From a virus: 33,577 nucleotides of DNA. Position numbers and translations under genes: made by a program. The stretch is from positions 1-33,577 of IMG/VR virus record IMGVR_UViG_3300010885_021350; one strand, 5' to 3'. Positions 19,880 to 24,507 of this stretch are shown one piece after another; within the stretch, counting starts at the first letter, position 1; every line of letters begins with the position of its first letter. A model generated the notes under the pieces. The model saw nothing but the letters and a program-made list of their open reading frames with translations, did no database searches and had not been told where the DNA came from.

Positions 19880-20383
19880 ATGATCATGATGGGAACAGAA
19901 ACAATCAACCTAACCAAAATCAAGCCGCACCCCAAGAACGTTCGCCAAGGCGACATAGGGGCAATAAGCGAATCGCTAGAACGTCACGGCCAATACCGGC
20001 CAATCGTCGCACAAAAATCCTCAGGGCATATACTCGCCGGAAACCACACTTATAAAGCCGCGAAACTACTTGGATGGAAACAAATAGAAGTCACGTGGGT
20101 TGACGTAAACGATGACGAAGCATTACGAATCCTGCTAGTAGATAACCGCGCAAACGATCTAGCAAACTATAACGATCACGCTCTAAACGAAATACTTGTT
20201 GGCCTCATGCAAACAGAACAACAACTTGCAGGTACAGGCTTTGACGCAGATGACCTTGACCTACTCATCAAAGATTTAGATAACGCAACGGAATCTCCAA
20301 CAGAGTTTCCGTCATACGACGAAACAACCCCTACAGAACATGAATGCCCTAAATGCAACTATAGGTGGTCAGGCAAGTCGTGA
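19880..20383 (+). CDS. ParB/Srx-fold domain protein with C-terminal zinc ribbon
   Basis: This 167-residue protein has a ParB N-terminal-domain core: IKPHPKNVRQGDIGAISESL, ILAGNHTYKAAKLLGWKQIE (the GNHR-like box is GNHT) and LVDNRANDLANYND. This variant, with GTGFDADDLDLLI downstream, is typical of ParB-like proteins beside or fused to phage DNA methyltransferases. The end HECPKCNYRW looks like half a zinc ribbon. ParB/Srx folds bind nucleotides (CTP in ParB) or DNA. It overlaps the methyltransferase by GTGA, so both belong to a modification operon. Three ATG codons lie at its start; 19880 is chosen. Confidence 0.75.
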   Translation: MIMMGTETINLTKIKPHPKNVRQGDIGAISESLERHGQYRPIVAQKSSGHILAGNHTYKAAKLLGWKQIEVTWVDVNDDEALRILLVDNRANDLANYNDHALNEILVGLMQTEQQLAGTGFDADDLDLLIKDLDNATESPTEFPSYDETTPTEHECPKCNYRWSGKS

Positions 20384-21438
20384 AACCAAAATACAAAGTT
20401 CCTGCGTTAGCGGAGATAGCCAAACTCAAAGGCACTAACGGTTATACGCTTGTATCTACATTCTCAGGATGCGGCGGTTCATGCTTAGGTTTTGAAATAG
20501 CAGGGTTTAACCCTTTACGCGCACATGAGTTCATTCCATCCGCCGTAGATACCTATAAAGCGAACCACCCAGATACGCCGGTAGATACTCGCGACATACG
20601 CGAAGTCACCACAGAAGAAATCTTAGAAACCCTAAACATGAAAAAAGGTGACCTAGATGTACTAGAAGGATCACCGCCGTGCGCCTCATTCTCAACAGCC
20701 GGTAAAAGAGAACGCGATTGGGGAAAAGTAAAAACGTATAGCGACGGCGCACAAAGATCAGATGACCTCTTTTTTGAATTTGCGCGACTTGTAGAAGGCC
20801 TACAACCAAAAGTATTCGTAGCAGAAAACGTCTCCGGCCTCGTCAAAGGAACCGCAAAAGGATATTTCTTTGAAATACTCGCCGCATTAAAAAAATGTGG
20901 CTACAAAGTAGAAGCACGACTACTAGACGCTCAATGGTTAGGAGTCCCCCAATCGCGCCAAAGAGTGATATTCGTTGGAGTTAGAAACGATCTAGAACTT
21001 GACCCCGTATTCCCTAGCCCAAACAATTACCGGTACTCAATCTTTGAAGCATTAGAAAACGTTCCTGAACCAACCGAAGAACAAGAAACAGGTTTAATAC
21101 TTACAAAAGCGGTTTACAACCAATGGATGAAAACCGAAATAGGTAAATCAAACAAAAAGTATTTTCAACTAGTACGAACAAACCCAAACAAACCCTGCCC
21201 AACAATAACCGCACACGCCGGAGAAGGCTGCGCGTCAGTCTGTCATTTCAATGAGCCACGAAAGTTTTCAATCCCAGAAATGCGTCGCCTCTGCTCATTC
21301 CCCGACGACTTCAAACTATTAGGCAAAAGAAATCAGAGAGCAGAAAGACTAGGCCGTTCAGTACCACCACTAATGATGGCCGCAATAGCAAAAACCATAC
21401 AAACAGAAATATTGGATCGTCATGCAAATCCCGACTGA
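20380..21438 (+). CDS. C5-cytosine DNA methyltransferase with altered cofactor-pocket residues
   Basis: The GTG at 20380 overlaps the ParB-like stop and gives 352 residues. The motifs are complete: TFSGCGGSCLGF (motif I), SPPCASFS with catalytic Cys101 (IV), AENV (VI), QSRQRVIFVG (VIII), KPCPTITAH (IX) and GRSVPP (X). In canonical enzymes motif X is GN(S/A)VPP; here the Asn is Arg326. The residue after the catalytic Cys, often Gln, is Ala102. The enzyme would modify cytosine C5 in DNA; the target sequence is unknown. The altered residues and the overlapping CmoA-like gene suggest the donor may be carboxy-SAM instead of SAM. Plain methylation remains the default alternative. Confidence 0.9.
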   Translation: MKPKYKVPALAEIAKLKGTNGYTLVSTFSGCGGSCLGFEIAGFNPLRAHEFIPSAVDTYKANHPDTPVDTRDIREVTTEEILETLNMKKGDLDVLEGSPPCASFSTAGKRERDWGKVKTYSDGAQRSDDLFFEFARLVEGLQPKVFVAENVSGLVKGTAKGYFFEILAALKKCGYKVEARLLDAQWLGVPQSRQRVIFVGVRNDLELDPVFPSPNNYRYSIFEALENVPEPTEEQETGLILTKAVYNQWMKTEIGKSNKKYFQLVRTNPNKPCPTITAHAGEGCASVCHFNEPRKFSIPEMRRLCSFPDDFKLLGKRNQRAERLGRSVPPLMMAAIAKTIQTEILDRHANPD

Positions 21439-22078
21439 CTGGACATTTAAACAAACCGGAATCGCCGCAGAGTTTGACCGACACGTACGCGAACAACTCC
21501 CTTGGTACGACCTAGTAACCGGCGCAGTAGCACACATCGCGAGACACTACATACCCGAACACGGCCGCGTTTACGACATAGGATGCAGTACAGGGAATAT
21601 CTCAAAACTATTAACCGAAACACTCGCAACTAGAAACGCCACTTGTATCGGAATAGACAACAGCGAACAAATGCTACAAATCTGGAACGGTTACGGAAAA
21701 ACCGAACTAGCAGACGCAACAACATACGACTACCAGCCACACGACCTCACCGTAATGTTCCTAGTCTTAATGTTCACCCCAATAACCGAACGAACAAAAC
21801 TAATAAACAAACTCATAGAAACATCACGCGCAGGCGGCGCAATTATCATAGTTGACAAACTAGAAGCCCCCAACGGTTACTTAGGAACAATCCTGCACCG
21901 CTTAACTATCGCCGGTAAAGTCGCCACAGGAACAACCGCAGAAAACATAATCAACAAAGAACTATCATTATCAGGCATACAACGACCACTAAAAGAAACA
22001 ACACTTCCAGACTCATTCAAACCGTTCTTCCGGTTCGGAGAGTTCGCAGGGTGGATACACGAAACCCCGTCTAACTAG
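21422..22078 (+). CDS. CmoA-like SAM-dependent enzyme (carboxy-SAM synthase-like)
   Basis: This 218-residue class I SAM-binding protein starts inside the methyltransferase gene (17-nt overlap). It resembles E. coli CmoA: DWTF near the N-terminus, VYDIGCSTGN (residues 50-59; CmoA VYDLGCSLGA), IGIDNSEQM (76-84; CmoA IAIDNSPAM), LMFTPITERTKLINKLIE and AGGAIIIVDK, and the end FFRFGEFAGW (CmoA WFQCFNFGSL). CmoA uses SAM and prephenate to make carboxy-SAM. I could not place the equivalent of CmoA Arg199 (carboxylate contact) with confidence; by eye it may be Glu180. It could instead be an ordinary methyltransferase. No CmoB tRNA enzyme is present in the window. Confidence 0.7.
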   Translation: MQIPTDWTFKQTGIAAEFDRHVREQLPWYDLVTGAVAHIARHYIPEHGRVYDIGCSTGNISKLLTETLATRNATCIGIDNSEQMLQIWNGYGKTELADATTYDYQPHDLTVMFLVLMFTPITERTKLINKLIETSRAGGAIIIVDKLEAPNGYLGTILHRLTIAGKVATGTTAENIINKELSLSGIQRPLKETTLPDSFKPFFRFGEFAGWIHETPSN

Positions 22079-22096
22079 CAATATTGGAATCCACAC

Positions 22097-22528
22097 ATGA
22101 CAAGTCCAAAAGCACCTAAACCAGATCAGATAGATAAAGAACGTCGGGTAATAGAACTACGACGCGCCGGTGCAACATACGACGATATAGCCCAAGCGGT
22201 CGGGTACGCCGATGCCTCAGGCGCAAGGAACGCTTATATCCGTGCGATGAAAAGAACTCTTGTAGAAGCCGGTACGGAAGAAATACGCGAACTTGAACTT
22301 GATCGCCTTGACCGTATGCAACGCGCTATATGGGCTAAAGCGATGAAAGGTGACGTTCAAGCGATTCATACGGCGTTAAAGATTCTTGACCGTCGCGCTA
22401 GGTATCTTGGCCTTGACGCGCCGATGAAGCAGGAAATTACTATTGAGAACGCTGACGGTGCAATGATTGACCGCGAAGTAGCACGGCTCGTAGAAATGTT
22501 AGAAAAAACAAATGGCACTACTTCGTAA
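22097..22528 (+). CDS. terS: Terminase small subunit-like HTH protein
   Basis: This 143-residue protein has an N-terminal HTH (VIELRRAGATYDDIAQAVGY, then SGARNAYIRAMKR) and a helical, DNA-contact-like region (ELELDRLDRMQRAIWAKAMK, then IHTALKILDRRARYLGLDAP) that is characteristic of actinophage small terminases. The small terminase recognises phage DNA for packaging. It precedes Gp88-like and large terminase genes, overlapping Gp88 by 17 nt. A short gap without a strong promoter separates it from the CmoA-like gene. Confidence 0.75.
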   Translation: MTSPKAPKPDQIDKERRVIELRRAGATYDDIAQAVGYADASGARNAYIRAMKRTLVEAGTEEIRELELDRLDRMQRAIWAKAMKGDVQAIHTALKILDRRARYLGLDAPMKQEITIENADGAMIDREVARLVEMLEKTNGTTS

Positions 22529-23147
22529 AGGGAACAGCGACCTCAAACGTGACAACATCTACGTATGGTCACTTCCTGCATGGATAGTCACCCTACCGAC
22601 CGGCAAACGCTTAAACACCTGCCCGTCTGCCGGAGTGTGCACAAAACATTGCTACGCGCTTAAAGGCACATTCAAGTTCAGGAACGTTCGTGAAGCACAC
22701 ATGAGAAACCTGATGATGATTGTTGATGACCTAAACGGTTGGATACAAGTCATGTCTTTAGAAATCGGGCATCCCAAGTTTCGTGGCGCATACGTCAGGA
22801 TACATGACGGCGGTGACTTCTTTTCCGAGGCGTATCTACAAGCGTGGCTACTCATAGCACGTGAACATCCTGAAACAACTTTTTACGCCTACACCAAAGA
22901 GGTAGAAATGTTTAGACGAATAGTTGAACCGGATTGCCCTGCAAACTTCAAATACGTTTTCTCATACGGCGGCAAACACGATCATTTGATAACTGAGGCG
23001 GATAGGCGTTGCGACGTGTTTCCTAATCACGAGTCATTGGTTGAAGCGAACTTTCATGATCAAGCAGAAAGCGACCTGCTCGCTATCACGGGGAACCACG
23101 CCGTAGGCATCGTCGTAAACAACCACGCAGGCGCAGTAAAAAAATGA
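22512..23147 (+). CDS. Gp88-family protein between terminase genes
   Basis: This 211-residue protein has the pattern of the phage gene product 88 family: CPSAGVCTKHCYALKGTF (Cys37, Cys43, Cys47), YVRIHDGGDFFSEAYLQAWL, then HPETTFYAYTKEVEMF. Family function is unknown. The Cys cluster could bind a metal or Fe-S cluster; the C-x5-C-x3-C spacing differs from radical-SAM C-x3-C-x2-C. It lies between terS and terL, with an ATGA overlap at its end. Confidence 0.7.
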   Translation: MALLRKGNSDLKRDNIYVWSLPAWIVTLPTGKRLNTCPSAGVCTKHCYALKGTFKFRNVREAHMRNLMMIVDDLNGWIQVMSLEIGHPKFRGAYVRIHDGGDFFSEAYLQAWLLIAREHPETTFYAYTKEVEMFRRIVEPDCPANFKYVFSYGGKHDHLITEADRRCDVFPNHESLVEANFHDQAESDLLAITGNHAVGIVVNNHAGAVKK

Positions 23148-23191
23148 ACGGAATGTCACTACGCCAACAACAAGCAAATCTACGCAAATGA
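23144..23191 (+). CDS. 15-residue minicistron linking Gp88 and terL
   Basis: A tiny frame (MNGMSLRQQQANLRK) starts in an ATGA overlap with the Gp88 stop and stops in an ATGA overlap with the terL start. It could serve to couple ribosomes from Gp88 to terL, or make a peptide. No function is assigned. Confidence 0.35.
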   Translation: MNGMSLRQQQANLRK

Positions 23192-24507
23192 GCGAAATGG
23201 CCGCACGAATAGCGGCGGCACAAGTTAGATGGGAACACCAGTTAGCGCGACCCAACCAGTTACCGCCCGATGGTGATTGGGTGATATGGATGATCCGTGC
23301 AGGTCGCGGCTTTGGTAAGACTCGTATCGGTGCTGAAACCCTCGCTAAATGGGCTATAAGGAACCCAAACACCCGTTGGGCGGTAATAGCCCCAACTTTC
23401 GGTGACGCTCGCGATACCTGCGTAGAGGGTGAATCCGGCCTGCTTAACATTGTTCACCGATACGGGATGCTGAAACCCCGAAACGGGTGGAACCGGTCAA
23501 CCGGAGAAATGCGGCTTATTAACGGCTCGCGTATCAAATGTTTCTCCGGCGATGAACCCGACCGGCTACGCGGCCCACAGCATCACGGCGCATGGGTAGA
23601 TGAGTTAGCGGCGTTCAAATACCCCGACGCTTTTGACCAACTTCAATTCGGTTTACGGCTAGGTGAACACCCTCGCACTATCATTACGACAACGCCGCGC
23701 CCCAAACCTTTCATTCGTGCTTTACTAAACCGACGTGACGGTTCCCTCGTAGTCACTAACGGATCAACGTTTGATAACGCCGACAACCTCGCACCATCGG
23801 CATTAGCAGAACTTATGGCGCGTTATGACGGAACACGCTTAGGTCGTCAAGAACTTTACGGTGAACTATTAGAAGATGTTGAAGGCGCACTATGGACACT
23901 TCAACTTATAGAACAAAACCGCCTACCGGAAGTACCACAACTTGTTCGCACCGTCGTCGCGGTTGACCCTTCAGTAACCGATACGGGAGACGAAACCGGC
24001 ATCATTGTCGCAGGCCGCGACAGCAAACAACACGGCTACGTTATCGCTGACTACAGCGTACGCGGCACACCTGACCGTTGGGCGCGTCGCGTAATAGATG
24101 CCTACGACGAACACCAAGCAGACTCCATCGTTGTAGAAGTCAATCAAGGTGGCCAAATGATTAGTCAAGTATTACGTACGATCCGGCCAAACTTACCGAT
24201 ACGCGAAGTACGCGCCACGAAAGGCAAACAAGTACGCGCCGAACCTATATCAGCGTTATACGAGCAAGGACGCATACACCACATCGGCGTATTTGAAGAA
24301 CTAGAAGAACAACTAACAACGTGGACACCCGATGCACCAAAGTCTCCCGACCGTTTAGATGCGCTCGTGTGGGCGTTTACGGAACTGATTCAACATTCCG
24401 GCGCGTTGTCTTATCTGCAAGCAATAGCAAAAATTTGTTCATGTGGATACCCGAACAAACAAACCAATACAGTATGTGAGTCCTGTCGCTTACCACTCGC
24501 GGCGTGA
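23188..24507 (+). CDS. terL: Terminase large subunit
   Basis: This 439-residue packaging ATPase-nuclease shows Walker A AGRGFGKTR (residues 38-46), Walker B AWVDE (135-139, Asp138/Glu139), TTTPRP as motif III, and a RNase H-like nuclease with VDPS (Asp260), VVEVNQGG (a Glu) and DRLDALVWA (a Asp). It translocates DNA into the prohead and cuts the genome. The C-terminus adds ICSCGYPNKQ ... CESC, a Cys pair set that looks like a small zinc ribbon; this is not a usual end for TerL. The start ATG overlaps the minicistron. Confidence 0.9.
   Translation: MSEMAARIAAAQVRWEHQLARPNQLPPDGDWVIWMIRAGRGFGKTRIGAETLAKWAIRNPNTRWAVIAPTFGDARDTCVEGESGLLNIVHRYGMLKPRNGWNRSTGEMRLINGSRIKCFSGDEPDRLRGPQHHGAWVDELAAFKYPDAFDQLQFGLRLGEHPRTIITTTPRPKPFIRALLNRRDGSLVVTNGSTFDNADNLAPSALAELMARYDGTRLGRQELYGELLEDVEGALWTLQLIEQNRLPEVPQLVRTVVAVDPSVTDTGDETGIIVAGRDSKQHGYVIADYSVRGTPDRWARRVIDAYDEHQADSIVVEVNQGGQMISQVLRTIRPNLPIREVRATKGKQVRAEPISALYEQGRIHHIGVFEELEEQLTTWTPDAPKSPDRLDALVWAFTELIQHSGALSYLQAIAKICSCGYPNKQTNTVCESCRLPLAA

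Follow-up and report, generated by a model that had tools for sequence, protein, structure and literature searches.

A compact ParB-CmoX-CmoA operon of a tailed-phage contig very probably serving carboxymethylation of DNA cytosines

In December 2025, Yang et al. described a phage enzyme type that transfers a carboxymethyl group to DNA cytosine (Nat Commun; PMC12783734). CmoX of Synechococcus phage S-B43 (SpCmoX) forms 5-carboxymethylcytosine (5cxmC) with carboxy-SAM (Cx-SAM) made by the phage CmoA (SpCmoA), and CmoY of the same phage is an asparagine synthetase-like ligase that adds glycine (PMC12783734). In the crystal structure of SpCmoX with Cx-SAM (8YF3), the carboxylate of the carboxymethyl group is contacted by Arg350, which occupies the position of Asn304 in M.HhaI; wild type SpCmoX uses Cx-SAM only, while the R350N variant uses neither SAM nor Cx-SAM (PMC12783734). 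In total, 5,615 candidates with SPPC and Arg were reported, many of them located beside CmoA, the ligase or ParBc, and the published counts hold 2,251 ligases for the 5,615 CmoX (PMC12783734). The CmoX cofactor can also be supplied by host CmoA of E. coli, and a GC recognition motif is reported for SpCmoX only (PMC12783734). Among C5-methyltransferases in general, the recognised sequence differs between enzymes. Next to these phage proteins, two further systems are related in part. In the tRNA cmo5U pathway, CmoA likewise makes Cx-SAM and the carboxylate is met by basic residues, namely Lys91 and Arg315 of CmoB (PMC4482062); unlike CmoX, however, CmoB is an unrelated acceptor enzyme acting on tRNA uridine. 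As described in PMC12783734, a basic motif-X residue also permits Cx-SAM use in the engineered M.MpeI N374K, which differs from natural CmoX in being a laboratory mutant of a CpG methyltransferase, with Lys instead of Arg and, in that description, no dedicated CmoA.

The window, i.e. the whole virus record of 33,577 bases analysed here, lacks end repeats and represents a fragment of a tailed-phage genome encoding Erf, a RecE-like exonuclease, portal and tail proteins. It harbours the three consecutive genes listed in Table 1, which are interpreted with high confidence as a compact DNA-modification operon giving rise to 5cxmC. SpCmoX and SpCmoA share with the window the C5-methyltransferase fold, the SPPC nucleophile, the Arg at the M.HhaI Asn304 position and the neighbourhood of CmoA. 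In S-B43, however, CmoA and CmoX are separated by CmoY and lack an adjoining ParB, whereas the window has the order ParB-CmoX-CmoA devoid of a ligase. The latter order, with no ligase nearby and likewise adjoining the terminase, is found in Moraxella phage Mcat8 (KR093632; 44 % identity for CmoX and 50 % for CmoA), where, in contrast to the assignments made here, the cassette is merely annotated as hypothetical proteins.

Table 1 Features of the ParB-CmoX-CmoA operon in the window
Feature	Position	Strand	Remarks
ParB-N-domain protein, C-terminal CPKC zinc-ribbon-like tail	19880..20383	+	PF02195, E 7e-8; overlaps CmoX by 4 nt
CmoX, putative DNA cytosine C5-carboxymethyltransferase	20380..21438	+	352 aa; PF00145, E 2e-60
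Cys101 codon TGC, catalytic nucleophile in SPPC	20680..20682	+	Corresponds to SpCmoX Cys98 and M.HhaI Cys81 (PMC12783734)
Ser121 codon AGC, YSD motif	20740..20742	+	Separates CmoX from Asn relatives
Glu322 codon GAA	21343..21345	+	Precedes Arg326 by four residues; conserved in 99 % of Arg enzymes
Arg326 codon CGT	21355..21357	+	Corresponds to SpCmoX Arg350 and M.HhaI Asn304; predicted Cx-SAM carboxylate ligand
CmoA-like carboxy-SAM synthase	21422..22078	+	218 aa; 17-nt overlap with CmoX stop; PHROG 4752, E 2.5e-51

The CGT codon is read in frame as Arg within QRAERLGRSVPPLMM of the open reading frame 20365-21438 (+), and the context of this residue in the translated protein is AERLGRSVPPLMM. 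Two GTG codons could serve as start, at 20380 (352 aa, Arg326) and at 20365 (357 aa, Arg331); the former is the likeliest, since as part of GTGA it shares bases with the stop codon of the preceding gene. Alignments with PDB sequences place Arg326 in the motif-X column that holds Asn in M.HaeIII (GNAVP) and DNMT1 (GNAVPP), confirming the replacement of the motif-X Asn by Arg on which the original prediction was built. Its further claim of otherwise intact motifs, arguing against simple decay, held up as well: Cys101 of SPPC, Glu149 of ENV as well as Arg193 and Arg195 of QxRxR show no variation across 38 relatives, and the glycine-rich motif I is likewise present and invariant in relatives. The Arg itself never varies within the window enzyme's own clade, and 151 of the 306 non-redundant relatives possess it.

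Among PDB sequences, 8YF3 is the best match of the window CmoX (E 4.3e-68; next 3e-23), and the alignment at the Arg column pairs ERLGRSVPPLMM of the window with ERVGRMVPPLMM of 8YF3 at an overall identity to SpCmoX of 40 %. The AlphaFold2 model of the protein (pLDDT 90.8) likewise retrieved 8YF3 as top Foldseek match (E 4.3e-30), and structural alignment yielded a Z-score of 39.0 and an rmsd of 2.1 over 315 residues, as compared to a Z-score of 31.5 for the next structure. The window protein thus combines the C5-methyltransferase fold, the SPPC Cys and the Arg at the R350/N304 position, and by analogy to SpCmoX the group it transfers to DNA cytosines is very probably carboxymethyl instead of methyl, with a cofactor made by the product of the next gene. 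That a basic residue in motif X could bind the carboxylate of carboxy-SAM, as had been proposed from the sequence, is realized in Arg350 of the S-B43 homologue (PMC12783734).

Assignment of the downstream gene to CmoA is based on its best family and structure matches. The top NCBIfam match is TIGR00740 (CmoA), at 57.5 bits and thereby below the cut-off of 193.3, which is also missed by the proven SpCmoA (115.6 bits). E. coli CmoA (4GEK) is the closest PDB structure by sequence and, for a model with a pLDDT of 91.6, by fold; CysG and BelI methyltransferases follow closely in the fold ranking, and fold similarity by itself is hence not decisive for CmoA identity. In E. coli CmoA, Arg199 contacts the Cx-SAM carboxyl (PMC4482062). 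The window protein possesses Glu at this position, but so does SpCmoA, and Arg199 was therefore dropped as a criterion for CmoA membership. This Glu, the sub-cut-off score and an identity of just 25 % to SpCmoA were counted against the interpretation of the operon as a 5cxmC cassette.

Co-occurrence of the motif-X Arg with CmoA was examined in relatives gathered from IMG/VR, phage records and GTDB genomes by means of Arg-type, Asn-type and Met-type queries. For 306 enzymes, non-redundant at 90 % identity, the aligned residue was read and the same locus was matched with a CmoA profile. CmoA was detected in 138 of the 151 Arg loci and in none of the 155 others (Asn, 0/52; Met, 0/102; Cys, 0/1); among loci flanked by 3 kb or more on either side, the respective numbers were 67 of 70 and 0 of 84. 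A basic residue at this column thus occurs mainly together with CmoA, as the original prediction had anticipated, and its counter-case of Arg in many enzymes lacking a CmoA neighbour was encountered in only 13 of 151 loci, most of them truncated or with CmoA elsewhere. Inspection of whole records revealed CmoA elsewhere in the genome for the loci L407, L354 and L089, a contig end cutting off CmoA in L300, L329 and L270, only weak CmoA matches for L372, and fragments of 27–37 kb still without CmoA for L080, L107 and L112, the last of which is also devoid of Glu322; L062 and L078 were outside this re-check. Such loci do not contradict the model, since host CmoA can supply the cofactor, as reported for E. 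coli (PMC12783734).

In a tree built with the motif-X residue itself masked, Arg requires 4 changes, as compared to a mean of 35.5 upon shuffling. Asn or Cys enzymes nested inside the larger clade of the window enzyme all lack CmoA, also in whole MAGs (L375, L364) or records (L108, L109). The association rests, however, on few evolutionary changes, which was likewise counted against the main explanation: there are only two independent pairs, both concordant but too few for significance and with no readable direction of change, so the contingency table overstates the number of independent events. Together with the properties of S-B43 CmoX, the Arg/CmoA coupling supports the predicted signal of altered cofactor use, although an enzyme of this kind had already been published. 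The contribution beyond it is modest: the published pattern is confirmed independently, a signature at second sites is added, and the cassette form without a ligase is brought into focus. In this independent sample, a single residue column predicts SAM versus carboxy-SAM across phage cytosine methyltransferases, and carboxymethylating phages hence become recognisable from sequence. A separate large clade of phage C5-methyltransferases carries Met at the motif-X column (IGMSVPP; L086, L087, L088, L185-L264 and others); its 102 non-redundant members never co-occur with CmoA.

Two further residues accompany Arg326. Position 121 is occupied by Ser in 98 % of the 151 Arg enzymes and in 0 of 12 nested Asn/Cys relatives, which have Glu, His, Ala or Phe, whereas Glu322 is found in 99 % of the Arg enzymes versus 50 % of the nested relatives; Ser121 thus covaries with Arg326, and Glu322 does so more weakly. 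The main text of PMC12783734 does not name Ser among the Cx-SAM contacts, and this covariation as well as the ligase-free share of about half of the complete loci go beyond that text. Judged from sequence, the small residue at 121 may accommodate the carboxymethyl group, and the orientation of Arg326 may be set by Glu322. Arg alone does not explain the cofactor switch, since SpCmoX R350N is dead with both cofactors; by analogy, an R326N exchange alone would not simply restore SAM use in the window enzyme. The second-site residues could explain the inactivity of R350N with SAM and are candidates for the remainder of the switch, with Ser121 representing a testable second determinant. Bacteroidota-encoded Arg-type enzymes beside CmoA (L378, L379 and L382) form their own branch on the tree and have Gly instead of Ser at 121 (YGN motif).

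Use of Cx-SAM, 5cxmC as end product, a sequence specificity and an anti-restriction role are all predicted for the operon. CmoA would generate carboxy-SAM from SAM and prephenate, CmoX would flip out the target cytosine, and Cys101 would attack C6, upon which the carboxymethyl group would pass to C5 to yield 5cxmC in the phage genome. Arg326, in place of the motif-X Asn, is envisaged to pair with the Cx-SAM carboxylate in a pocket probably also shaped by Glu322 and the small Ser121, and the modification most likely shields phage DNA from host restriction. Two other readings of Arg326 have little in their favour. Decay or a sequencing error can practically be dismissed, as conservation already refutes it: Arg is invariant in the clade of the window enzyme and shared by 151 non-redundant relatives, all with intact catalytic Cys. 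Alternatively, CmoX could be an ordinary SAM-dependent C5-methyltransferase tolerating Arg, next to a CmoA-like gene for an unrelated small-molecule or tRNA methyltransferase, as the score of the CmoA-like protein below the curated family cut-off would allow. This is highly improbable in view of the proven homologue, which cannot use SAM (PMC12783734), the near perfect Arg/CmoA coupling and the joint change of Ser121 and Arg326; furthermore, no cmoB neighbour was seen among the annotated genes of the window.

The fate of the carboxymethylated base is less certain. The CmoY-like AMP-forming amide ligase of the CmoA-CmoX-CmoY system for 5cxmC-amide is absent from the fragment at hand: no PF00733 (Asn_synthase) match was obtained beside the operon or anywhere else across the 33.6-kb contig, on which a distant ligase would not be seen. 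Possibly, though rather doubtfully, 5cxmC from CmoX/CmoA is an intermediate that a ligase outside the contig or an unrelated enzyme turns into an amide, in the manner of CmoY from S-B43. A ligase is indeed encoded within 5 kb in 43 of 89 complete Arg/CmoA loci, and the fragmentary nature of the window (no end repeats, no tape-measure gene found) leaves scope for one. Moreover, L285, whose CmoA is closest to that of the window (73 %), and the likewise closely related L274 carry a ligase between ParB and CmoX. At this very site of the window, a 4-nt overlap between the ParB and CmoX genes leaves no room for a ligase, and the ligase-free order ParB-CmoX-CmoA recurs in L007, L009, L017 and Mcat8. 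Ligase-free loci account for 46 of the 89 complete ones, in line with the counts in PMC12783734, which marks this form of the CmoX cassette as common. In a more novel reading, put forward tentatively and at less than even probability, 5cxmC would remain bare in this lineage, i.e. a final base with a permanent charge (or be tailored by a non-homologous enzyme), which would make the ligase-free ParB-CmoX-CmoA cassette a distinct modification type, its pocket being set by the coupled Arg326, Ser121 and Glu322 rather than by Arg alone.

The restriction-site content of the window is conspicuous. AGCT and TCGA are entirely missing from positions 1-33577, as compared to shuffle means of 94.5 and 141.9, respectively, and very few sites remain for GCAGC, GCCGGC, CCNGG and GGNCC. 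The clade relatives L007, L017, L009, L039/L053, L272, L274, L280, L285, L296 and L308 lack AGCT entirely or almost so, which does not hold for L289, L056, L273, L015, L277 and L300. The missing sites suggest strong past restriction pressure and a modification that does not protect every site. Stronger avoidance by ligase-free than by ligase-bearing CmoX phages was considered but found no support: any palindromic 4-mer is avoided in 14 of 46 versus 16 of 43 loci (p 0.51), and site avoidance does not correlate with ligase presence.

The ParB-like protein is the usual partner in CmoX loci, homologues adjoining 113 of the 138 Arg/CmoA loci; association of ParBc with CmoX has also been reported in PMC12783734. 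Recurrent extra clusters recognised by Pfam in the neighbourhood of these 138 loci, some further clusters being without Pfam match, are related to packaging and structure and include no other tailoring enzyme. Downstream of CmoA follow a small gene, probably coding for a packaging protein as judged from its position, a GP88-family protein (22512-23147; PF17338, E 6e-52) and the large terminase (23188-24507). The GP88-family protein has a Cys-rich N-terminal segment (CPSAGVCTKHC) and, among the Arg/CmoA loci, recurs near CmoX in L007 only. The large terminase is nearest to that of Microcystis phage Mae-JY09 (52 %), a weak hint at a possible cyanobacterial host.
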